Source of the DNA: Pedosphaera sp.
GTDB lineage: Bacteria; Verrucomicrobiota; Verrucomicrobiia; Limisphaerales; Pedosphaeraceae
Length of the DNA: 33,909 bases
Assembly (NCBI GenBank): GCA_028293285.1
Contig: JAQGPC010000181.1
Coordinates: forward strand, 1 to 33,909
Reading direction: 5' to 3'
The translations under genes and the position numbers were made by a program. The notes beneath the pieces are model-generated. The model had not been told where the DNA came from, did not search any database, and saw only the letters and a program-made list of their open reading frames with translations. Positions 21,324 through 33,909 of this stretch are shown piece by piece; the stretch's first letter is position 1, and every line of letters starts with the position of its first letter.

Positions 21324-24300
21324 TCAAGGTACCACGACTCGATAGAATTTCTGTGAACCGGAGGCGGTATCGTTCTTTGAAGCTGTGGCATTGGTGGCAG
21401 TGACATCCGGGGCGATGTCCAGCCAGTTGGTGTTCCCGAGACTCGTATTGGATTGCAACCGGTAAGTCGCGCCGTTCACCACGTTCGTCCAGGTGACGGT
21501 CACGATGGAACCGTTTTTGACAACGGAACTGATGACTGGCCGCGGCGTTTGACCGGTTACCGTCAGGGCCACTGCCGTGCTGTTGGTCGCAGAAATGTCG
21601 TTGGTGACCGTCACGGAGTAACTGCCCGCGTCGGTCGCTTGCAGATTGGTGAGCGTGAGGGTGGAGTTCGTCGCGCCGATAACCGGGCTTGCGCCTTTCA
21701 GCCATTGATAACTGAAGGGAGCGCTCCCAGAGGCGACCACGGAGAAGGTCACGCTGGCTCCCGATGCCGCCGACTGGCTCTGGGGCTGTGTGGCAATGGA
21801 AACCGGGTCGGCAACCGGCGCAAAACGAATCCCGCGGATAACCTCAATGGCACCTACGGTGTAAATGACGGAACTGGAGGAGCCAGCGACCACATCGTTA
21901 ATGCGGACCACACTGTTCTGTGCGGCAACCCCGGTCATGGCAAAAACGATCGCGCCGGTTCCAGCCGCACCGCCCCCGGTGAAATTGCTGAAATCGACCG
22001 CCACACCATAAGGCCCGTTATTCCCCGAAGTGCCTCCGGGCATGTCATTCAGTATGTAGCTGCGGACCCAATTTGTGGTGCCGGCATCGAAATCCCAGCG
22101 CTGCACTCCGCCGCCGGTGGCCAAATTGCTGCCATCGGTCAGATAGATGGTGTTGCCGTCCGGGCTGACCACAAAATCGTCGGGGTTGGTGGTGGCAAAA
22201 AGCTGCGTTGCCGCGGTGGCAACGGTCGGCAGTCCGTTGAAGTGAAATAGTCCGCCATTCAGACAGGCGTAGAGGTCGTTATTATAAATGCCCACCGCAA
22301 ACCGCCCCCCACTGGTGGTGACGCGGACATCCGAATCTGGCAGGGGTGGCGTGTAAGTAACCCCCGCACCTCCCACCGTCCAAAATTGCGTCAAACCATC
22401 GGTGGAAGCCGCTCCCTTGAGAAACTGACCATTGTAAAGACTGTTCGTGTCGGAAACGGCCAGGGAATAATAGCCCAGGCCATTCACCGTGCCGATCCCG
22501 CGCGGGACCGCCGCCGCCGTCGAAGACCCCAGGGCTGAGCCAAACGGCTTCGTGGTATTAAACCCACCAAAGACGACGGCGCGCCGGTTGGTTGTCGAAC
22601 CCAGGTAATGGTCCGTCAAGGCGTTGTTTCCAATCAAGGCTGTGCTGCCACTATCGGGGATGGTGATGGTGCTGACGTAGGCTCCATTCGTTGTGATCTG
22701 GTCGAGGAACAAGGAGTTGCCCGTGTTGGCCAGCGCCGCCACGCCATCACCGGCGCGCAAGATGACTAGGTTGGTGGGAGCCAGATGTAGCAACCCCGCC
22801 GAAACCGTCAGCGTCGCACTGGCATTGGTCGAGCCGCCGAAATTACTGACCTGCACCGAGTAATTTCCCGCGTTGGTAAGCTGCGCGCTCAATATCGAAT
22901 AACTGTTTGCCGTCGCGCCGGAAATCGGGCTGCTATTAAAAGACCATTGATAAGCGATGCCAGTGCCGGTGGCGCCCACGGCAAAAATAACCTTGTCGCC
23001 AACCCGCACGCTTCGCGATTCCGGACCGGAGGTGATGGCTGCCGAAACGATCACCGTCAACGTCACATCCACGCTGTTCGTAATTCCCGAGCCGCCGGTA
23101 ATGTGAGCTGTGTAAACTCCGGCATCGGCGGTGGTGAGCGCGGGAATGGTCAGCGTGGCGGTATCCACACCGGAGATGCGACCGTCGTCAAAGATGGAGG
23201 CGGTGCCGTTTTTGTACCAGGTATAATTGAGCGGCGGCGTGCCGCCGGCGGCCACCGTAAAGATGGCCGTCCCGCCAGTCGCATTGGTGCGGCTCACGGG
23301 CTGAGTGACAATGTAAGGATCAGCCACGGTCAAAGTCGCATTGGAACTGGTCGAGTTGGTGCCGCTGCCAGTAACCACCACGGAGTAGGAACCAGCATCG
23401 CCCAGTGCCACTCCGGCAATGGAAAGGACACTCGACGTGGCCCCGGAAATCGTGGCACCGGAGACCGAAGGGCCATTGCTCAGATTGCTTCCGTCCTTGG
23501 ACCATTGGTAGGTAAAGGGAGGATTGCCGCTGACGCCGACGGAAAAGGTTGCGGTCGCGCCATAATTGGTCGCCAGATTTTGCGGCTGCTGGATTATGGC
23601 CAATGGAGTTACCACCACACTCAGCGCCGCATTGGCACTGGTCGCGGAATTCAGATCGTTGCTCACGACGACGGAATAATTTCCCGAATCACTGAGCGCG
23701 ACGCTCGACACTTGCAAGGTGGCGGTATTGGCCCCGGAAATGTTTCCGACATTGGTGAGGTTCGTCCCATTCTTTTTCCATTGGTAGGTAAAAGGCGCGG
23801 AACCGGACACCGCCACCGTGAAGGTCACGGTCGCACCTGGCGCGTTGGTCACGCTCGCCGGTTGCGTAACGATGGAAGGCGCGTCAGCCACAGGCGCGAA
23901 ACGAACGCCGCGAATCACCTGGTTAACACCAGCGGCATAAATAATCGGCGCGGGAGTGGTGGTGTAGCCGTTGTCCACAATGCGAACGAGACTATTCAAG
24001 GTAGCCTGGCTGGAAGTGGCATAAATGACTGCACCCGTCCCGGTGGCTCCTCCCCCGGTGAAACCACTGAAATCAACCGCGATTCCGTCTGGCCCGTTAT
24101 TGCCGGTGGCAGTAGCGGTAATATTGGTGAAGTTGTAACTGAGCGTCCAGGTGCCGCCGTTGTTGTCATAGCGCCGCACGCCGCCGCCGGCAGTGCTGAG
24201 GTTACTTCCGTCGGCTTCATAGATGGTCAAGCCATCGGGACTCAGGGCGAAGTCATTGCAGTTGCCGGTCGTCGCCACGACCTGGCTGGCAGTGGTGGCG

Positions 24301-25181
24301 GTGGTCGGCAATCCGCCGAATTGATTGATGCTACCCCCGACCAGGACGTAGAGGACGGAATTGTAGATGGAGATTGAAGAGCGACCGCCTGAGGAAATGA
24401 CAGTATCGGGGCCGAGCGACGGTGCCACATAAACCGTACCCGACCCGCCCGAAGTCCAAAACTGGGTCAAGCCGTCGGTGGAGGTCACGCCTTTCATGAA
24501 CTGGCTGTTGTAAATGCTGCTGGTGTCCGAGACGGCCAGCGAATAATAGCCCAAACCATTCACCGTGCCGATACCGCGCGGGGCCGCCAGGGCGGTGGAG
24601 GCTCCCAGGCTGGAACCGAACGGCTTGGTCACATTAAAACCACCAAACAGGACCGCGCGATTGTTTCCCGCTGAATTCAGGTAATGATCGCTCAAGGAGT
24701 TGAAACCCACCAGCGACGAAGTTCCGCTATCCGGAATGGTCACTGTGCTGACATACGTTCCGTTCGTGGTGAGCTGATCCAGGAACAGGGAATTTCCGGT
24801 GGTGGCCAACGCTGCCACGCCATCCCCGGCGCGCAACACCACGAGGTTGGTGGGAAAAAGATGCAGCAGCGCGGTCGAAACCGTGAGCGACGTGCTGGCG
24901 CTGGTGGTGGCAGTGGTCGAATCGGTGATCAGCACCGAATAGTTGCCCGCGTTCGCAAGTTGTGCGCTTGCCAGCGTGTACGACGCCGCGGTGGCGCTGG
25001 GAATGGGAGTCCCGTTGAACGACCATAGATACGTCAGCGTCGTGCCGGTGGCGCCCACCACGAAAGTCACCTTGTCACCCACGCGCAACGAGCGCGACTG
25101 CGGGGCGCTGGTGATGACCGGGGCGGCGAATACGCTGGCCGCCAGCGCAAACAACCAAAGGGAGACGAGGATTTTTTTCAT
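21324..25181 (-). CDS. Giant secreted Ig-domain/propeller-like protein with internal duplication
   Basis: I choose ATG 25181 (MKKILVSLWLFALAASVFA, a clear signal peptide), giving 1285 residues; a frame from 25250 only adds a signal-masking extension. Order: Ig-like domain, a ~350-residue propeller-like region (from TNLVVLRAGDGVAAL to VIRGVRFAPVAD, with SPDGLTIY and a NNGPDGIAVDFS block), three Ig-like domains (WKKNG, WSKDG, WYKNG; each ending NYSVVV or similar), then a second Ig plus propeller-like unit, another Ig and a ~70-residue terminal module ending FYRVVVP. No catalytic motif is evident; adhesion or polymer binding is plausible. The GC-rich third positions leave very long open frames on the opposite strand. 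It lies 105 bp downstream of a pseudopilin gene on the same strand. Confidence 0.88.
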   Translation of the reverse strand: MKKILVSLWLFALAASVFAAPVITSAPQSRSLRVGDKVTFVVGATGTTLTYLWSFNGTPIPSATAASYTLASAQLANAGNYSVLITDSTTATTSASTSLTVSTALLHLFPTNLVVLRAGDGVAALATTGNSLFLDQLTTNGTYVSTVTIPDSGTSSLVGFNSLSDHYLNSAGNNRAVLFGGFNVTKPFGSSLGASTALAAPRGIGTVNGLGYYSLAVSDTSSIYNSQFMKGVTSTDGLTQFWTSGGSGTVYVAPSLGPDTVISSGGRSSISIYNSVLYVLVGGSINQFGGLPTTATTASQVVATTGNCNDFALSPDGLTIYEADGSNLSTAGGGVRRYDNNGGTWTLSYNFTNITATATGNNGPDGIAVDFSGFTGGGATGTGAVIYATSSQATLNSLVRIVDNGYTTTPAPIIYAAGVNQVIRGVRFAPVADAPSIVTQPASVTNAPGATVTFTVAVSGSAPFTYQWKKNGTNLTNVGNISGANTATLQVSSVALSDSGNYSVVVSNDLNSATSANAALSVVVTPLAIIQQPQNLATNYGATATFSVGVSGNPPFTYQWSKDGSNLSNGPSVSGATISGATSSVLSIAGVALGDAGSYSVVVTGSGTNSTSSNATLTVADPYIVTQPVSRTNATGGTAIFTVAAGGTPPLNYTWYKNGTASIFDDGRISGVDTATLTIPALTTADAGVYTAHITGGSGITNSVDVTLTVIVSAAITSGPESRSVRVGDKVIFAVGATGTGIAYQWSFNSSPISGATANSYSILSAQLTNAGNYSVQVSNFGGSTNASATLTVSAGLLHLAPTNLVILRAGDGVAALANTGNSLFLDQITTNGAYVSTITIPDSGSTALIGNNALTDHYLGSTTNRRAVVFGGFNTTKPFGSALGSSTAAAVPRGIGTVNGLGYYSLAVSDTNSLYNGQFLKGAASTDGLTQFWTVGGAGVTYTPPLPDSDVRVTTSGGRFAVGIYNNDLYACLNGGLFHFNGLPTVATAATQLFATTNPDDFVVSPDGNTIYLTDGSNLATGGGVQRWDFDAGTTNWVRSYILNDMPGGTSGNNGPYGVAVDFSNFTGGGAAGTGAIVFAMTGVAAQNSVVRINDVVAGSSSSVIYTVGAIEVIRGIRFAPVADPVSIATQPQSQSAASGASVTFSVVASGSAPFSYQWLKGASPVIGATNSTLTLTNLQATDAGSYSVTVTNDISATNSTAVALTVTGQTPRPVISSVVKNGSIVTVTWTNVVNGATYRLQSNTSLGNTNWLDIAPDVTATNATASKNDTASGSQKFYRVVVP
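21807..23035. repeat. Internal duplication of the giant Ig gene, downstream unit
   Basis: Encodes the second Ig plus propeller-like unit (SRSVRVGDKV ... VIRGIRFAPVAD). It is colinear with 23886-25110, with long nearly identical blocks such as GRFAVGIYNND versus GRSSISIYNSV and the shared RGIGTVNGLGYYSLAVSDT. Copy lengths are about 1229 and 1225 bp. Confidence 0.85.
23886..25110. repeat. Internal duplication of the giant Ig gene, upstream unit
   Basis: Encodes the first Ig plus propeller-like unit (SRSLRVGDKV ... VIRGVRFAPVAD). The divergence from the second unit, spread along the length, suggests an old duplication followed by independent change. Confidence 0.85.
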
Positions 25182-25286
25182 GTTAATTAAAGCAATGGGT
25201 ACGGAAGGAGAATAACTGACCAATCCGGACTGGGGCCGATTTGGACTCAAATTTAAATCGAATTGGCATGGAACGGTGCAAAGTGA

Positions 25287-26174
25287 TCATTGTTCCTTGT
25301 AAGTGGAATGCTCGCGCAACCATAGCAAGTCCGCATTGTTCGCGGCACAGGGGACTTCGGTGATTAATCCTGAAGAAGTTCCGATGGTCTGGCGTTGCAA
25401 TACTTCCGCCGTGCGCCAGCGGTGAATTTCGGCATGGCCATCGGCAAAGGTAACTCCCCCGGATCCCGCGTGATATCCTGCCGGAACATCGCGAATTTTG
25501 CTGCCCACCATATCGACCGCTAAAACTCCGTCGTTAATGCTGTCATCGCGCTGATCAGCAAACACCAATGCCATGGAGGGTGATATAACCGAGATCTCGC
25601 TGGCTTTCCGGAAAACTTTGTACCCGGTATTACCGGCTTCCGGCACCGTGACGTAACCCATAAAATCACTCATCGCGATGGTGCGAACCAGGGGGAAAGT
25701 CTGGTTGCCGATGCGCACCTGTACTTTGCTCGCCGCGCACTGGTAAGCCTTGGCATTATTCACGTACGGCCCCAGGGTCGCATACTGGGGATCGAGGATA
25801 AGCATGGTATTGGTATTGTCCGTGTTGCCGACCTGACTGGCATTCAACTTACCCGCTACCCATTGCCCCGGGCCGTGCGCTCCTTGCACCTGCCAATCGT
25901 TGCCCGGAATATAATCGGAAAAGTCCCCGGCATACATATGCCAGGACAACTGAACCTGGCGCAGGTTATTCATGCAATACACTGCCTGCGCCTTCTGCTT
26001 GGCCTTGCTCAATGCGGGCAACAACAAGGAGGCAAGAATCGCAATAATCGCAATGACTACCAAGAGTTCGATCAAGGTAAATCCCGCCATGCCCGGGCGG
26101 GCTTTCTGACGGTCTGCGCCGATGGAACGCAGATTTATCGATGGGACTGGATAAAGCTGATGCGTGTGGGACAT
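25287..26174 (-). CDS. H-X9-DG-type pseudopilin-like protein (second copy)
   Basis: The product is 295 residues. A 30-residue leader is followed by [29 protein letters not shown], with the canonical Gly-Phe prepilin cleavage point. [28 protein letters not shown] continues the usual pilin helix. A globular C-terminal part carries [20 protein letters not shown] (H-X9-DG). It resembles the protein at 18469-19260 from end to end, including the WLRE/WLKQ tail. ATG 26174 has no strong ribosome-binding site; an internal start at MAGFTLIE (residue 29) would leave a too-short leader. It is followed 105 bp later by the giant Ig/propeller gene, so the two may share a transcript. Confidence 0.9.
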
Positions 26175-26317: not shown

Positions 26318-26995
26318 TTAACGAGGAGTATTTAAATAACGGGCGACGGCTTCGGTGCGTGACCGGACATGCATCTTTTTATAAACGGCCTTCAAATAGG
26401 TACAAACCGTGTCCACGCTGAGCGAAAGATGTTCGGCAATTTCCTTGTTCGAATATCCCTTGGTCAAAAATATCAGCACCTCCTCTTCGCGCGCCGATAA
26501 GCGCACGCTCTCATCCTGCAAACGGCTTCGCTGGCGAAAGAAACCCACGACCCGCCGCGCGATCTGGCTCGTCATCGGCACCCCGCCTTTCATGACGTCC
26601 AAAAGTGAAGTCCGCAGGTCGTCCGGCCGGGTTAGCTTTAACAGGAAGCCGTCGGCTCCCGATTCCAAGGCCATAAACACCAGTTCATCATCATCCACGG
26701 CAGTCAGCATCACGATTTGGAGATCGGGCAAAATCGCCTTCAATTTCTTGACACATTCGATGCCCGACATGCGCGGCAAAAAAATGTCCATCAGCACCAC
26801 ATCGGGCGGGTTGGCGGGAATTAACCGCAAGGCCTCCTCAGCGGAAACGCAGGTTTGGATGCAAACGAAATCCGAAAAGGAATTGATGAGGCGGCTCCAG
26901 TTCTCGCGGATTTCGGGCAGGTCTTCCACCAGCGTAATCCGCACGGGCAGTTTGGACGGGGCGGCCGGTTGGGCTTTTGAATGATTTGCGACCAT
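26318..26995 (-). CDS. NarL/LuxR-type response regulator
   Basis: I choose ATG 26995, 5 nt after the kinase stop, giving 225 residues; the frame stays open to 27091, but that would overlap the kinase by 90 nt. REC domain about 15-135 with acidic pair E24/D25, phospho-acceptor D70 (VVLMDIFLPRMSG), T98 and K120 all present. The LuxR-type HTH spans about 165-222 (LSAREEEVLIFLTKGYSNKEIAEHLSLSVDTVCTYLKAVYKKM). The final TEAVARYLN is typical. Binding sites are most likely in the divergent intergenic region 28507-28694, an inference from position. Confidence 0.94.
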   Translation of the reverse strand: MVANHSKAQPAAPSKLPVRITLVEDLPEIRENWSRLINSFSDFVCIQTCVSAEEALRLIPANPPDVVLMDIFLPRMSGIECVKKLKAILPDLQIVMLTAVDDDELVFMALESGADGFLLKLTRPDDLRTSLLDVMKGGVPMTSQIARRVVGFFRQRSRLQDESVRLSAREEEVLIFLTKGYSNKEIAEHLSLSVDTVCTYLKAVYKKMHVRSRTEAVARYLNTPR

Positions 26996-27000
26996 GAAAA

Positions 27001-28506
27001 TTATAATACGATTGTACCGTGAGCCGGGTGAACCTGGTTTTCCGAAAGATTTTCCGGAGCGCCCAACGTCGCGTTGCCGCCGGACCTCCAAGCCCGAAAC
27101 CAGCGGGAGCCAAGGCGCGCATCCGACAGCGGCATGACGAATTCCACCCGGCAGCCTTTCCCCGGCTCACTGGCCAAAGCACAACTTCCCCCCAACTCCT
27201 TCATTCGCTGCGCCATGTTTTTGAGGCCGTTGCGGTCCGGGGTCGGGCGCTGCGGGTCAAAGCCCTTCCCATTATCGGCCACTACGACCCGGATGACCTG
27301 ATTGGCACAGGCAATCGTCAGGATAACTTCGGTGGCTCCCGAGTGTTTCGCCGCGTTGTTCAATGCTTCCTTGACCGCGAGAAAAAGATTTCGCCGAACC
27401 GGCAGGTCAAAGCTGCATCCGGGAAATTCCGTGGCGACATCGAATCGGCAGCGAATGGAGGCGGCCCGCAAAAATGTCTCGGCATACTTGCAAATGTAAG
27501 TGGAGAAATCGCCCAGCGTGTCGCGTTGCGGATTTACCACCCAGACGACTTCATTAATCGCGCCCGCCAATCCGCGCATACGATTGCAAAGTTGATCGAG
27601 CTTGGCGCGAGTGTTCGTCCCGTCCGGCAGTTCGCGCTGGGTCACTTCACCGAAGAGGATGATTTGGGTGATGGCGGCGCCGAGGTCGTCGTGAAGATCG
27701 CGAGCCAGGCGCAGGCGTTCCAATTGCAAGAGACGCTGGGATTTTCGCTGCACCGCCAGTTGCGTCATTAAATAGAGGCAAAACAGGGCGACCGCCGTGC
27801 AGGTGGAAATAAGCGCGATTTGGAATACGCCGGTCTGCCAAAACTTGACTTTGATCGGTTGCAATATCGGGCCGGTGGTGATGCGCGGCCGCCAATGCGC
27901 CAGTTGCACCACTTTGGCGCGGCGCCACGCAGGACCAGGGTTGTTTTTTTTCTCCCAGCCGGATTCGTCGCTCGGCACGATTCGCCAGGTGGCATCGGTG
28001 CCAACCTTTATTATCCGCCCGTTCGCCAGTTCCGCGCGCAAATTCAGGATCATCCCGGCGAATAGAGTGCCATTGAATGCCTCGACCGCCAGGACATGAG
28101 TTCCCGGCTCAAGAATGGCCGAGATATCGTATTCAATCACTCTTTGCCATTCGCCCGCCTGTCCAATTTCGCGGCCATCCAGGAAAAAGCGATAGCCATT
28201 GTCCGCCGTGATCTGGATATAGGCGTTTTTCACCGAAGCTTCATTTGGAATCTTAAACTTTTTCCAGAAGCGGCAGGTTTGAAAATCCTCGGTGCGGTGG
28301 TCCCAAATCCAGGAAGCAGATTCGGACATCGCTTCAACGACCGCCGGCCAGTTGGTATCCGTTGTTGCTGCATAACTCCGACCGGAAAAAAGAATCAGGA
28401 AAAGCAGAATCGCCAGATAATAACGGAAAGAGCGAATGGTGCGAAACCGAGGCAGGATTCGATGCCAGACTAGGCGGTTGAACTGGAGGGATAATTTCAA
28501 TTTCAC
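27001..28506 (-). CDS. Histidine kinase (HisKA_3) with rhamnosidase-type carbohydrate-binding-like sensor
   Basis: The product is 501 residues. TM1 about 29-47; extracytoplasmic region about 48-225; TM2 about 226-248; HisKA_3 with phospho-acceptor H272 (LARDLHDDLGAAIT); ATPase domain with N383/N384 (NNAAKHSG) and DNGKGFD (411-417). The sensor region has SASWIWDH, ADNGYRFFLDGREIG, YDISAILEPGTHVLAVEAFN, TDATWRI and SGWEKK, an order seen in the N-terminal sugar-binding jelly-roll of bacterial alpha-L-rhamnosidases. A ~40-residue C-terminal tail (ARLGSRWFRAWRSG...) extends beyond the kinase core. It lies 5 nt upstream of the regulator. The ATG at 28506 has no clear ribosome-binding site. Confidence 0.93.
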   Translation of the reverse strand: MKLKLSLQFNRLVWHRILPRFRTIRSFRYYLAILLFLILFSGRSYAATTDTNWPAVVEAMSESASWIWDHRTEDFQTCRFWKKFKIPNEASVKNAYIQITADNGYRFFLDGREIGQAGEWQRVIEYDISAILEPGTHVLAVEAFNGTLFAGMILNLRAELANGRIIKVGTDATWRIVPSDESGWEKKNNPGPAWRRAKVVQLAHWRPRITTGPILQPIKVKFWQTGVFQIALISTCTAVALFCLYLMTQLAVQRKSQRLLQLERLRLARDLHDDLGAAITQIILFGEVTQRELPDGTNTRAKLDQLCNRMRGLAGAINEVVWVVNPQRDTLGDFSTYICKYAETFLRAASIRCRFDVATEFPGCSFDLPVRRNLFLAVKEALNNAAKHSGATEVILTIACANQVIRVVVADNGKGFDPQRPTPDRNGLKNMAQRMKELGGSCALASEPGKGCRVEFVMPLSDARLGSRWFRAWRSGGNATLGAPENLSENQVHPAHGTIVL

Positions 28507-28694
28507 GCGACCTTCAGTTCAAACAAAACCAATCATGAGCAAAAAACTCCCTGATACCCTCGTAAAGGCGGTGTCGCGGGCCATGGGGTAATATTCTTTG
28601 AACTTGTGGCGCAATCAAGAAATATCACTATATCACTGCCTCACCGAAATAGGGTCTGTTCATCCGCGGGCGAGTGAGTTATTTGTTTTGACTC
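28507..28694. promoter_or_regulatory. Divergent intergenic region between kinase and dehydrogenase genes
   Basis: These 188 bp hold signals for both genes. Visible elements: a GTTCAAA...TTTGAAC inverted pair about 80 nt apart (near 28517 and 28600), a tandem ATATCAC-T-ATATCAC (28623-28637), and TGAGT/ACTCA (28675-28695) just before the plus-strand start. Any of these could be a regulator site. No clear -35/-10 pair was assigned. Confidence 0.35.
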
Positions 28695-31600
28695 ATGAAT
28701 CTGTGTCAATTGCGATCGAAATTACTTCTATGTTTCCCATTGGTAATTTTGATGACGATAATAGTTCCCGCCGGGGCGGCGGAAAATCCGTTTGCCGAGT
28801 TCGTGCGCAAGACCGAACCGCTTACGCCGGAGCAGGAGCAAAAAACCTTCCATCTGCCACCCGGTTTCGAAATTCAACTCGTGGCGAGTGAACCTGAAAT
28901 CGGCAAGCCGATGAACATGGCCTTCGATGCGCGCGGACGACTTTGGCTGACGCAATCACGCGAGTACCCCTTTGCCGCGCCCACGAACCGGCCCGCGCGC
29001 GACAAAATCATGGTCCTTGAAAATTTTGATGTGAACGCCCGCGCGCAAAAGGTCACCACCTTTGCCGAAGGATTGAATGTCCCGATTGGTCTCTACCCGT
29101 TCAAGGACGGCTGCCTCGCATTTAGTATTCCCAATATTTATTTCTTCGAAGACACCGACGGCGATGGCAAAGCCGACAAAAAGGAAAAAGTCCTTGGCGA
29201 ATTTGGTTTCAACAAGGATTTGCATGGTCTCACGAGCTCCTTTCGGCGCGGCTTCGATGGCTGGATCTATGCAGATCACGGATTCAAAAACGATTCGACA
29301 CTCACCGCGCAGGACGGCAGCCATGTCACCATGAATTCCGGCAACACCTATCGTTTCCGACCGGATGGCGCGCATGTCGAGCAATATTCCCATGGCCAGG
29401 TCAATCCCTTCGGATTGATGTTTGATCCCCTGGGCGATTTGTGGGCATCCGATTGCCACAGTTCACCGGTTTACCTGCTTTTGCGCGGCGGCTATTATCC
29501 GAGTTTTGGCAAACCGCACGATGGCCTTGGCTTCGCTCCCGGCATTTGCGATCACAGCCATGGTTCAACGGCCATCGCCGGTATGGTTTACTATGCGGCC
29601 ACAAATTTCCCGGCGGCATTTCAAAACAACACTTTCATTGGCAACGTGATGACCTGCCGCATCAATCGCGATTCCTACACTGAAACCGGCTCGACGCGTA
29701 TCGCCAGGGAAGAACCGGATTTTCTAATCTGTGATGACCCCTGGTTTCGTCCCGTGGATGTGCAACTCGGACCGGACGGTGCAATTTACGTGGCCGATTT
29801 TTATAATCGCATCATCGGCCATTATGAAGTGCCACTGGATCATCCGGGCCGCGACCGCGAGCGCGGTCGCATCTGGCGAATTGTTTACCGGGGAACCACG
29901 GCCTCGCCCGGCAATTTAATTCCTCTGGCGCTGCCGGATGACGTAAACGGCCTCATCGCTGAACTGGGGAATTCCAACCTCATCCGCCGCATGCTGGCCA
30001 TGAATGAACTGACTGATCGCATTGGCGAAAAAGCCGTAGGTCCGCTAAAGGCAATTTTTCAACAACAGAAAGCCGTCTCGTTTCAAAAAGTGCATGCGCT
30101 CTGGACCCTGCAACGGCTCGGTGCACTCGACGAAGCATTACTGGCAACCGCCGCGCAGGATGCGAGCCGCGACGTGCGCGTCCACGTGCAGCGAATTGTG
30201 GGGGAAATGCCAACACCCGGAGTAAAAACACTCGCCCTGGCCGTCACCGGCACACGCGATGCCGACGCCTATGTCCAACGCGCGTCCGCCGAGGCGCTGG
30301 GCCGGCATCCCGATTTTTCCCATATCCAGCCGTTGCTGAAATTACGTGAAAGCATTTCCAGAGCAGATTCGGAACTCCTCCATGTGGCCCGAATCGCTTT
30401 GCGCGACAATCTGGTTGCCTCGAATAATTTCGCGCGCGTCATGGCGGCAGATTTATCCGAGGCGGATTCGCGTGCGCTCGCCGATGTCTCGGTCGGAATC
30501 CAGACTCCCGGGGCGGGTGAGTTTTTACTCAAGCACATCCAAAAATTCTCCGAGGATCGCCGCCAACTCGCGGATTACCTGCGTCACATCGCGCGCGTGG
30601 CTCCGGTGGTGCGGCTGCCTGAACTCGCCAGTTCCACTCGCAAAGCCTTCGCCGACGATCTCGACTTTCAGGTTGCACTATTAAAGTCAACCGAAGCCGG
30701 TCTCGCCCAACGCGGCGTAAAAAGCGAGGCGAGCCTGACTGACTGGGGCGCGGATTTGGCTGGCAAGCTTATCGTCCCCCTCGACCCGGACTTACTCCCC
30801 TGGCGCAATACACCACTTAAAAACGGCGATACGCCCAATCCCTGGGTCGTCGAAAAGCGGGCTTCGGCGGATGGCGACAAGGAATCGCGCTTCATTTCCA
30901 GCTTTGCGGTCAGTGGAGAAAATCTAACCGGGGTGTTGCGCTCAAAACCGTTTATCATTCCCGGTCAGCTTACTTTTTTCATCGCCGGATATGATGGCTC
31001 GCCCGACCGTCCGATGGGCAAAAAGAACTTCTTCCGCCTGCGTTCCGCCGATAACCATAAAATTCTGGCCGAAGCCCGTCCCCCGGCAGCCGAGATCGCC
31101 CGGCCCGCAAAATGGGATTTGGGCAAAGTCGCTGGCAAAAAAGGTTACCTGGAAATTGTGGATGGCAATGGCGGGCATGTAGCCGCATGGCTCGCAGTCG
31201 GTCGGTTTCAGCCGGAAGTTTTGCCGCTGCCGTCGGTCATTCCGAGCCAGATCGAGAAACGCCAGCTTGCCGCCGCCGAACTGGCTGGCGAATTTCACCT
31301 GACCAAGCTTACGCCGCAACTGCTGGCGCTGTTGGAAAATGAAAAGGCCGACGAAGAAGCCCGCATCGCGGCGGCCAAAGCTTTGGCGGCTTTGAATCCC
31401 GAAACCAGCGTTCCGGAAATCGCCAAAATCTTTTCAACTGCCGGGGAGCCGACAAAACTGCGCGAAGTCACCGCGCAAATGCTTGCAAAAATTAATTCTC
31501 AAAGTTCCCGGTCAGTCCTGGTCACGGGAATAACCCGGGCTTCACATCCACTGCAGAAGCAAATTGCGTCGGCGCTGGCCGCCAATCCGGAAGGTGCGGA

Positions 31601-32222
31601 GGAACTGCTGCAAGCTGTCGAGCGGGGCAAAATTTCCGCGCATGTGTTGCAGGAAAACGCTGTTAAAGAGCGGTTGGCCGCCGCCAAACCCGTGGATTTA
31701 AATGCCCGTTTGGAAAAACTGACAAAGGATCTTTCGCCCATCAGCGACGAAAAGCAAAAGTTGATTGAGGCGCGACGTTCCGCATTCACCGCCATGCGCA
31801 CTTCCCCGCAGAACGGCGAAAAAATCTTTACCCGCAATTGTGCCGTTTGCCATTCCATCAGTGGTCGCGGAGGAAACATCGGGCCGCAGCTTGATGGCGT
31901 GGGCAATCGCGGTGCCGACCGCCTCATGGAAGACATTCTCGATCCCAACCGGAATGTGGACCCGGCCTTTTATTACAGCAACGTCACGCTCAAAGATGAC
32001 ACGGTGCTGAGCGGGTTGTTTCGGCGCGAAGACGGCGCATTGGCCGTGTTTGCAGACGCCACGGGCAAAGAAGTTTCCATTCCGAAAACGGAGATCGTTG
32101 AGCGCCGGCAGTCGCACAATTCACTGATGCCGGACAATTTCGGGGAAATTATTTCCCCAAGCGATTTTAACGATTTGGTGAGCTTCCTTTTGACCAAGAG
32201 CAGCAAACTCGCAGCGCATTAG
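28695..32222 (+). CDS. Secreted PVC-type membrane-bound-dehydrogenase/HEAT/heme-binding protein
   Basis: The product is 1175 residues. Signal peptide about 1-28 (FPLVILMTIIVPAGAAE). N-terminal dehydrogenase propeller about 35-410 (FHLPPGFEIQLVASEPEI, FDARGRLWLTQSREYPF, DTDGDGKAD, LGPDGAIYVADFYNRIIGHYE). HEAT-like helical region about 415-690, an extra beta-rich domain about 725-855, more helical repeats, and a C-terminal Pirellula/Verrucomicrobium-type heme-binding domain with CAVCH (C1049, C1052, H1053) and likely axial Met1145 (HNSLMPDNFG). Periplasmic or surface oxidation with electron transfer is the expected role; substrate unknown. It is divergent from the two-component system, longer than the related protein at 8394-10949, and has a more elaborate middle part. 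Confidence 0.93.
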   Translation: MNLCQLRSKLLLCFPLVILMTIIVPAGAAENPFAEFVRKTEPLTPEQEQKTFHLPPGFEIQLVASEPEIGKPMNMAFDARGRLWLTQSREYPFAAPTNRPARDKIMVLENFDVNARAQKVTTFAEGLNVPIGLYPFKDGCLAFSIPNIYFFEDTDGDGKADKKEKVLGEFGFNKDLHGLTSSFRRGFDGWIYADHGFKNDSTLTAQDGSHVTMNSGNTYRFRPDGAHVEQYSHGQVNPFGLMFDPLGDLWASDCHSSPVYLLLRGGYYPSFGKPHDGLGFAPGICDHSHGSTAIAGMVYYAATNFPAAFQNNTFIGNVMTCRINRDSYTETGSTRIAREEPDFLICDDPWFRPVDVQLGPDGAIYVADFYNRIIGHYEVPLDHPGRDRERGRIWRIVYRGTTASPGNLIPLALPDDVNGLIAELGNSNLIRRMLAMNELTDRIGEKAVGPLKAIFQQQKAVSFQKVHALWTLQRLGALDEALLATAAQDASRDVRVHVQRIVGEMPTPGVKTLALAVTGTRDADAYVQRASAEALGRHPDFSHIQPLLKLRESISRADSELLHVARIALRDNLVASNNFARVMAADLSEADSRALADVSVGIQTPGAGEFLLKHIQKFSEDRRQLADYLRHIARVAPVVRLPELASSTRKAFADDLDFQVALLKSTEAGLAQRGVKSEASLTDWGADLAGKLIVPLDPDLLPWRNTPLKNGDTPNPWVVEKRASADGDKESRFISSFAVSGENLTGVLRSKPFIIPGQLTFFIAGYDGSPDRPMGKKNFFRLRSADNHKILAEARPPAAEIARPAKWDLGKVAGKKGYLEIVDGNGGHVAAWLAVGRFQPEVLPLPSVIPSQIEKRQLAAAELAGEFHLTKLTPQLLALLENEKADEEARIAAAKALAALNPETSVPEIAKIFSTAGEPTKLREVTAQMLAKINSQSSRSVLVTGITRASHPLQKQIASALAANPEGAEELLQAVERGKISAHVLQENAVKERLAAAKPVDLNARLEKLTKDLSPISDEKQKLIEARRSAFTAMRTSPQNGEKIFTRNCAVCHSISGRGGNIGPQLDGVGNRGADRLMEDILDPNRNVDPAFYYSNVTLKDDTVLSGLFRREDGALAVFADATGKEVSIPKTEIVERRQSHNSLMPDNFGEIISPSDFNDLVSFLLTKSSKLAAH

Positions 32223-32346: not shown

Positions 32347-33909
32347 TTACGGAGCCAGTTCAATTCTAAAAATGGCAGAAGACGAAACCGGAATGGAAAC
32401 CGTGAAAGAATTCGTGATGGCGGTGGGAGGGTTATTAGTATAAATGGCGGTCCACGGTCCGCTCAACTGACTTGCCTGCTTGAGTATCTGCCGCACGGAC
32501 TGGCCGCCTTTCCACGTTAAGGTGACTTGTCCGTTTTCGGTCTGGATGGCAGTGAACTTTAATACGGAATTAGCGGACTTGGGATCGGTGTCCGCCGCCT
32601 GTTCGTGCAGATTGTCCACCCCATCCCCATCATCATCCGCCGAGGCAACCGCGCTGATGGGATCGCCAAAATGCAGTTGTTCCCAGCCATTAAGCAAACC
32701 GTCCCCGTCCGAATCAAGCTGCGGCAGCGCCTGACGCGAAAGCACCAGCACACTGTAAGGGCCGATGGTAACTTGCCCATTGCCCGCGGCCACCTGAACC
32801 AGCGAACTTCCCTTGTTGCCAAAATCAGCGCCATACGCTGTCCAATCTGAGTTCAGGTTGACATACCACGTTCCACTCGCGGGAAATCCGCCGATCGAAT
32901 AATTGGTCAATGTCTTGTTGGAGAAATTCATAACCACCATCACCTGGTCATTGGGTCCCGCGCCCCAGCGGTGGAAGGCGAGAAGCTTGGCGGTGTTGTC
33001 CACTACGTGCGACGTGATATTGGGACCGGTGAGGCCAAGGCTGACGCCGTCGAGATTTCGTCGCAAATGGATCAAGTCACGATAAAATTGCACGACGGCG
33101 GAGTAGTTGGTCTTGTTTGCCCAGTGCAGCGGGTTGCTGTCACCGAACTGCTGAGTCTCCAGCATCTCCTGTCCCATGAATAGCATGGGCATTCCCGGCG
33201 TGGTCATTACGACGGCCGCAGCCAGCATGGATCGTTTGCGCGCAAAGTAACCGGTGGGATCGGCGGATTGAATGCGATAAGGCAGTCGTTGCGCGCCGGC
33301 ACCATTCAGGTTGCCCACCAGATCGTGAGTTTCATCGTACAGCACCCGGGAAAATCCCGACGCATTCATGGCGTTGAACAATCCCACCATGTCCCGCGAA
33401 CTATCGGTTCCCTTGACGATTTCACCAATGAGGGTATCGCCAAAACTTCGATTCCATTCGCCGTCAAAACTCATTCCCGACGATTCATCCTCGGCAATAC
33501 TGATGGCTCCCGGATGATCCGCATGGATGGTGGTGGAGTTGATGTATTGAATAAGCGAATCGGCCTCGGGAATGCCGACATGTCCTGGGTCGTAATATCT
33601 CATGGCTCCCACCGCGTCCCAACGAAAGCCATCCACATGATACTCATCCAACCATTGGCGAAAACTTCCAATGATGAAGGAACGCACGCCTTCGGTTGAA
33701 TAGTTGGGCCGACCTCCCCATTGGGTGCAGCAGATGTTTGACGCGGTGTAGAAGTAAATGCTCGGGCTGGCTCCATTATCAAACGTCCACAGGTCGAGAT
33801 CACTGGGACCGTAATGATTGTGAACCTCGTCGAGCAGAACGCGAATGCCGCGTTGGTGGGCGGCTTTGACGAAATTTTTTAATCCATCCGGCCCGCCGTA
33901 ACCGGTATT
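32347..33909 (-). CDS. Secreted GH13 alpha-glucan enzyme (branching-enzyme/isoamylase-like), N-terminus outside the window
   Basis: The frame is open to the right edge, so 520 residues are seen and the start is missing. Residues from the window edge: region I DEVHNH (27-32), region II GFRWDAVGA with nucleophile D98, region III AEDES with acid/base E140, region IV YDETHDLVGN with D196, all intact. YGGPDGLKNFVKAAHQRG resembles branching enzymes and maltogenic GH13 enzymes. After a C-terminal beta domain come calcium-type DSDGDGLLNGWE and DDDGDGVDNLHE loops and a ~70-residue module ending IFRIELAP. It would act on alpha-1,4/1,6 glucans outside the cytoplasm. The nearby kinase sensor suggests sugar control, but this is inference. 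Confidence 0.92.
   Translation of the reverse strand, partial: NTGYGGPDGLKNFVKAAHQRGIRVLLDEVHNHYGPSDLDLWTFDNGASPSIYFYTASNICCTQWGGRPNYSTEGVRSFIIGSFRQWLDEYHVDGFRWDAVGAMRYYDPGHVGIPEADSLIQYINSTTIHADHPGAISIAEDESSGMSFDGEWNRSFGDTLIGEIVKGTDSSRDMVGLFNAMNASGFSRVLYDETHDLVGNLNGAGAQRLPYRIQSADPTGYFARKRSMLAAAVVMTTPGMPMLFMGQEMLETQQFGDSNPLHWANKTNYSAVVQFYRDLIHLRRNLDGVSLGLTGPNITSHVVDNTAKLLAFHRWGAGPNDQVMVVMNFSNKTLTNYSIGGFPASGTWYVNLNSDWTAYGADFGNKGSSLVQVAAGNGQVTIGPYSVLVLSRQALPQLDSDGDGLLNGWEQLHFGDPISAVASADDDGDGVDNLHEQAADTDPKSANSVLKFTAIQTENGQVTLTWKGGQSVRQILKQASQLSGPWTAIYTNNPPTAITNSFTVSIPVSSSAIFRIELAP

Follow-up and report, generated by a model that had tools for sequence, protein, structure and literature searches.

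CBM67-type sensor histidine kinases of Pedosphaera sp. and other Verrucomicrobiota: candidate receptors for rhamnose-type glycans

What does a histidine kinase perceive when its extracytoplasmic region resembles a module of alpha-L-rhamnosidases, and which genes does it control? This question is raised by a locus of Pedosphaera sp. located on a stretch of 33,909 nucleotides (contig JAQGPC010000181.1; "the window" denotes this whole stretch). The initial annotation, made from the sequence alone, read the region as a rhamnosidase N-terminal jelly-roll without the catalytic part, proposed that it senses a sugar, and assigned to the kinase the control of a divergent heme protein gene and perhaps of a GH13 gene.

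Architecture of the kinase and its surroundings

The following features of the window were distinguished (basis of the assignment in brackets):

27001..28506, minus strand: CBM67-type sensor histidine kinase, 501 aa (ORF call, domain matches)
28369..28434, minus strand: N-terminal hydrophobic stretch, residues ~25-46, putative signal peptide or TM1 anchor (sequence)
27904..28326, minus strand: CBM67-type jelly-roll sensor, residues 61-201 (sequence and structure matches)
28198..28203, minus strand: Asp102-Asn103 pair of the sensor (alignment to the SaRha78A CBM67 and the Pleurotus lectin)
27823..27843, minus strand: juxtamembrane motif FWQTGVF, the segment also given as FWxxxWF (alignment)
27760..27822, minus strand: second transmembrane helix (TM2), residues ~229-249 (structure model)
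27529..27720, minus strand: HisKA_3 dimerisation/phosphoacceptor domain, residues 263-326, with His272 (Pfam, 4e-6)
27124..27393, minus strand: HATPase_c ATP-binding domain, residues 372-461 (Pfam, 2e-11)
26318..26995, minus strand: NarL/LuxR-type response regulator, its ATG separated by 5 bp from the stop codon of the kinase (domain matches)
25287..26174, minus strand: prepilin-type N-methylation protein, candidate target (same strand, downstream)
21324..25250, minus strand: large secreted multi-Ig protein, start probably at ~25181, candidate target (same strand, downstream)
28695-32222, divergent from the kinase: PVC-type heme-binding protein (TIGR02604/TIGR02603)
32347-33909, beyond the divergent heme gene: GH13 gene, cut by the contig end

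The kinase gene starts with GTG, with GAAGG just 5' of the start codon; positions 28507-28694, outside the kinase ORF, are intergenic. All sequence blocks quoted in the initial annotation are present in the protein in the order given there: SASWIWDH (residues 63-70), ADNGYRFFLDGREIG (101-115), YDISAILEPGTH (126-137), TDATWRI (170-176) and SGWEKK (182-187). The composition of the locus is that of a HisKA_3 (NarX/NarL-type) two-component system, with a HisKA_3 domain and its phosphoacceptor His, a HATPase_c domain and an adjacent NarL/LuxR regulator. In the AlphaFold model, TM2 is continuous with a long helix extending into the kinase (residues 226-292; model positions 206-272), and W223 of the juxtamembrane motif is invariant in the family alignment (65/65 kinases).

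A Pfam scan of the kinase found no GH78 catalytic (alpha/alpha)6 domain (PF17389), in agreement with the catalytic part having been described as absent, and gave no match to a PAS/GAF or 7TMR-DISM extracellular domain, PAS and 7TMR-DISM having been named as alternatives at the outset. Neither Reg_prop nor Y_Y_Y (PF07494/PF07495) was detected in the kinase by Pfam and the regulator is a separate protein, so the system is not an HTCS.

The sensor domain and its calcium/sugar site

For residues 61-201, searches with the window sequence gave matches to NF041573, an NCBIfam model for alpha-L-rhamnosidase (7e-13, model positions 134-284), and to lectin (2e-9) and rhamnosidase (3e-5) chains of the PDB; given these values, the jelly-roll resemblance is not a chance one. 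A family profile of the sensor, built from 65 sequences, matched both repeats of the Pleurotus ostreatus lectin (POL; E 2e-29) and residues 136-295 of SaRha78A from Streptomyces avermitilis (3w5m; E 1.3e-22). The AlphaFold2 model of the sensor (pLDDT 90, pTM 0.84) retrieved 6t1d, 3w5n (with L-rhamnose) and 6kc2 (POL with rhamnose) as its best fold matches in the PDB, and 3w5n was superposed on it with an rmsd of 1.9 Å over 149 columns (Foldseek E 1e-10); a viral fold library returned just weaker matches to phage PA14 or tail proteins. The modelled fold is thus a CBM67 jelly-roll and not a PAS or 7TMR-DISM domain.

The rhamnosidase-type jelly-roll has therefore been borne out by profile, model and fold search, and the "N-terminal" part of the earlier identification is refined: the window protein has no match to Bac_rhamnosid_N (PF08531) at E<=1 and the profile favours the SaRha78A module, and assignment to PF08531 was rejected in favour of CBM67. 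The sensor belongs to the CBM67 type and is homologous to domain D of SaRha78A. Domain D is reportedly the CBM67 of that enzyme, at about residues 136-295 (Fujimoto 2013). A study of a shiitake lectin, in which CBM67 is modelled on 3W5M, agrees with this placement. In the SaRha78A crystal, L-rhamnose is bound to CBM67, a calcium-dependent, non-catalytic module (PMC4690510).

The Asp102-Asn103 pair aligns with Asp179-Asn180 of the SaRha78A CBM67 (chain positions counted) and with an Asp-Asp pair of POL. Asp179 and Asn180 are presumably the residues named in the 2013 work of Fujimoto on CBM67. D102 is kept in 64/65 and N103 in 62/65 kinases, the window kinase included, the remaining three having Asp at the second position, as does POL; N145 is kept in 64/65. 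The window kinase retains all residues of the calcium/sugar site. In POL-type lectins, the Ca2+ that serves in sugar binding is reported to be held by this pair (PMC11512411). Conservation of the pair in the kinases is informative, because it is missing from the second, PF08531-like part of 3w5m in the alignment.

In the loops that neighbour the site in sequence, residues 104, 118-124 and 146-149 vary between subclades, and therefore the ligand of the window kinase need not be L-rhamnose; rhamnose or another 6-deoxyhexose is plausible. POL is called promiscuous in the title of a work cited within PMC11512411, and to the extent of that title the CBM67 fold does not fix the ligand.

An unlikely alternative is that the jelly-roll binds no sugar itself and has a purely structural role or one in protein-protein interaction, e.g., in sensing a partner lectin, a glycosidase or the state of the cell wall. 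The same fold class does occur in many multi-domain secreted proteins, the profile gives hundreds of weaker matches in proteins of ~1000-1100 aa, and fold relatives without the pair exist, such as the PF08531-like domain of 3w5m. However, the Asp-Asn pair is near-invariant in the CBM67 kinases, they match best to two sugar binders, CBM67 and POL, and their genes cluster with those of rhamnosidases (see below). The CBM67 kinases form a conserved family and are probably sugar receptors. The carbohydrate sensing proposed in the initial annotation is strongly, though indirectly, supported by the proximity of GH78 genes, by microcompartment genes and carbohydrate domains, and by the site residues.

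Distribution of the family and its genomic neighbours

A search with the sensor profile identified ~70 CBM67 kinases in 39 of the 320 genomes of the order. Across these genomes ~72 matches scored above 200 bits, one partial match scored 141, and no other exceeded 110 bits. Each of the 65 strong ORFs inspected encodes a sensor-TM-HisKA_3 fusion; the fusion noted in the initial annotation is recurrent and conserved. Among 388 genomes sampled phylum-wide, a CBM67 kinase was found outside the order in 2 genomes only; the named carriers are Pedosphaera sp., Limisphaera sp. and other "Verrucomicrobia subdivision 3" MAGs. In 63/65 cases, the kinase gene is immediately followed by a NarL/LuxR regulator gene in the same orientation. 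The kinase cores group together (SH-aLRT 99) within a larger kinase set, in which Reg_prop and Y_Y_Y domains occur in several members and PAS/GAF domains in one; since the cores form one clade, a single sensor swap or fusion event likely gave rise to the CBM67 kinases.

The sensor region also varies in composition. Two kinases (L060 and L063) carry tandem CBM67 domains, and an extra carbohydrate domain was found in two of the scanned variants of 930-1056 aa. In one of these (~930 aa; L155:8097-10895), an F5/8C and GH43-like region precedes the CBM67 sensor, so that this sensor kinase contains a glycosidase-like domain; kinases L159, L169, L174 and L175 share its length and layout, the domain scan having covered L155 itself. 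The other (1056 aa; L143:3868-7038) has an N-terminal WbsX-like domain (PF14307, 6e-49).

GH78 catalytic domains (PF17389) are scarce, with 1-18 matches per genome, and yet one lies within 10 kb of 27 of the 70 CBM67 kinases (1.1 expected). In six genomes, the proportion is 7/10 for CBM67 kinases vs. 2/140 for the other HisKA_3 kinases listed (Fisher p 1.4e-8, among those listed), and GH106 rhamnosidases flank four further loci. A clade of 34 kinases (support 100/98), which are kin and not 34 independent cases, accounts for 25 rhamnosidase-flanked loci, vs. 3/31 elsewhere. The glycan ligand of the largest subclade most likely contains L-rhamnose. A paralogous kinase in the genome of the window itself (contig C139) adjoins a protein of 1733 aa that contains a GH78 domain. 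Rhamnosidase genes of this genome are located on contigs C139 and C216.

Several members of another clade, of 12 kinases, adjoin genes of bacterial microcompartments (BMC), i.e., shell proteins, EutN/CcmL, PduL-type PTAC, RnfC/PduS-like protein, class II aldolase and aldehyde dehydrogenase. The BMC locus type of Planctomycetes and Verrucomicrobia serves the breakdown of L-fucose and L-rhamnose (PMC4207490, PMC8857213), and this subclade points to one of these two sugars. At L145, L158, L172 and L182, the kinase-regulator pair is directly adjacent to a fucose/rhamnose-type BMC locus.

A search for an operator motif common to the regions upstream of the kinase and GH78/GH106 genes gave no palindrome above shuffles worth naming. 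The best 8-mer, CGCCAAGC, occurs at 12/28 loci (shuffle maximum 8); its excess was unconvincing under block-wise shuffling and it was rejected as a shared operator of the regulator.

The window kinase belongs to a subclade of four (the window, L059, L164 and L173; 98/88). No GH78 or GH106 gene is found within ~10 kb of these four kinases, nor on the 33.9-kb contig of the window, one end of which is just 5.4 kb from the kinase; in all four, the regulator is followed by large secreted proteins. The L164 kinase has an extra N-terminal domain of 237 residues that is 34-46% identical to modules of two adjacent secreted proteins, and this identity suggests that sensor and secreted proteins encounter the same substrate. 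Along L164:640-11505, modules shared with the extracellular domain of the kinase recur in both neighbouring secreted proteins.

The subclade may therefore have shifted its ligand, e.g., to a surface or self-made polysaccharide, and control secreted Ig/LamG/pilin-like surface proteins and not rhamnoside breakdown. We regard this refinement of the main explanation as possible and hold it tentatively: the regulator followed by secreted proteins, the lack of a rhamnosidase and the module shared in L164 speak for it, but the window kinase keeps all calcium/sugar-site residues, and the subclade comprises just four members on short contigs. The likeliest local targets of the window kinase would be the same-strand downstream genes for secreted proteins, over the divergent heme gene. 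Adjacency of the prepilin-type gene was rejected as a strong signal and is weak evidence, because such genes are so common (79 in the window genome; 79-112 N_methyl genes per genome, relatives included). In the window genome and its relatives, they are often located near giant Ig/LamG/HpiC1-like secreted proteins.

It is very unlikely that the kinase-regulator pair controls the divergent PVC heme-binding dehydrogenase/cytochrome gene together with the GH13 gene, the proposal of the initial annotation. Such control would fit the divergent arrangement and the 188-bp intergenic region shared by the kinase and heme genes, but none of the other 64 kinases checked has a homologue of the heme protein within ~10 kb, and for this reason neither control of the heme gene nor conservation of the divergent neighbourhood in relatives is supported; the gene was rejected as a conserved partner. 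The sole other match in the homologue search was a second gene in the window itself. For the GH13 gene, which is not a recurrent neighbour, nothing speaks in favour of control. A 1027-aa protein (L074:7299-10382) was observed to combine an N-terminal CBM67-like jelly-roll with a match to the C-terminal heme-binding part of the divergent gene product.

Proposed signalling and comparison with known systems

In HisKA_3/NarL pairs, a His residue of the kinase is autophosphorylated and the phosphate is then transferred to the NarL-type regulator. The computed fold, family, residue conservation, fusion, regulator adjacency and genomic association lead us to propose ligand binding, signal direction and targets for the window system in the following form, which we consider quite probable as a whole: a membrane two-component sugar receptor whose CBM67 module binds carbohydrate and signals via HisKA_3 to a NarL/LuxR regulator. 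The periplasmic lectin module would bind carbohydrate, probably via Ca2+ held by Asp102-Asn103. Binding would alter the FWQTGVF juxtamembrane segment and TM2, and the change would pass into the continuous helix. This helix would switch the HisKA_3 kinase by setting autophosphorylation of His272, and the phosphate would be passed to the regulator encoded 5 bp downstream, which may then alter the transcription of neighbouring genes involved in the use or handling of this glycan. With somewhat less assurance, we favour the broader reading of an undescribed Verrucomicrobiota receptor family that uses a lectin/CBM module as a direct two-component sensor for rhamnose-type glycans. Its subclades would be specialised for different deoxy-sugar programmes, namely those of rhamnosidase loci, of the fucose/rhamnose microcompartment and of secreted surface proteins, and some would have gained a glycosidase-like domain as part of the receptor.

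The sensor shares with the SaRha78A CBM67 (3w5m/3w5n) the jelly-roll fold, the sequence profile and Asp-Asn at the Ca/rhamnose site. There, however, CBM67 is an ancillary module of a GH78 enzyme, whereas in the kinases it is the sole or membrane-proximal sensor and the catalytic GH78 domain is absent. The Pleurotus lectin (6t1d, 6kc2, 6li7) is the best profile and fold match and resembles the tandem kinases in having two CBM67-like repeats, but it is fungal, carries Asp-Asp instead of Asp-Asn and has no signalling part. Kinases of the Reg_prop/Y_Y_Y (HTCS-like) type are among the closest kinase cores and represent carbohydrate-related two-component sensing; in the CBM67 kinases, a 140-residue CBM67 takes the place of the long beta-propeller and Y_Y_Y, and the regulator is a separate, unfused NarL-type protein.

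RsgI anti-sigma factors of Clostridium thermocellum carry CBM or GH10 sensor domains; there too, genes for glycan degradation are controlled by an extracellular CBM or glycosidase-like module in response to a polysaccharide, but through sigma-factor release and not phosphotransfer, and the signalling part is unrelated (PMC4711584). No description of a CBM67-histidine kinase was found in the open-licence literature, and publications naming both terms are, by their titles and abstracts, genome surveys and not accounts of such a receptor. The parts are thus already known, as is the principle of a CBM acting as a sensor, from RsgI (PMC4711584); the fusion of CBM67 to a kinase appears to be new.

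Verrucomicrobiota are important degraders of polysaccharides, and little is known of how they perceive particular glycans. The CBM67 kinases would provide a compact receptor whose ligand class is predictable from a characterised binding module, and the conserved site residues and genomic neighbours make this prediction directly testable. A sugar-binding module was joined to a kinase core, apparently in a single event, and diversified thereafter; the RsgI sensors of Clostridium, which also bear CBMs, are a parallel case.
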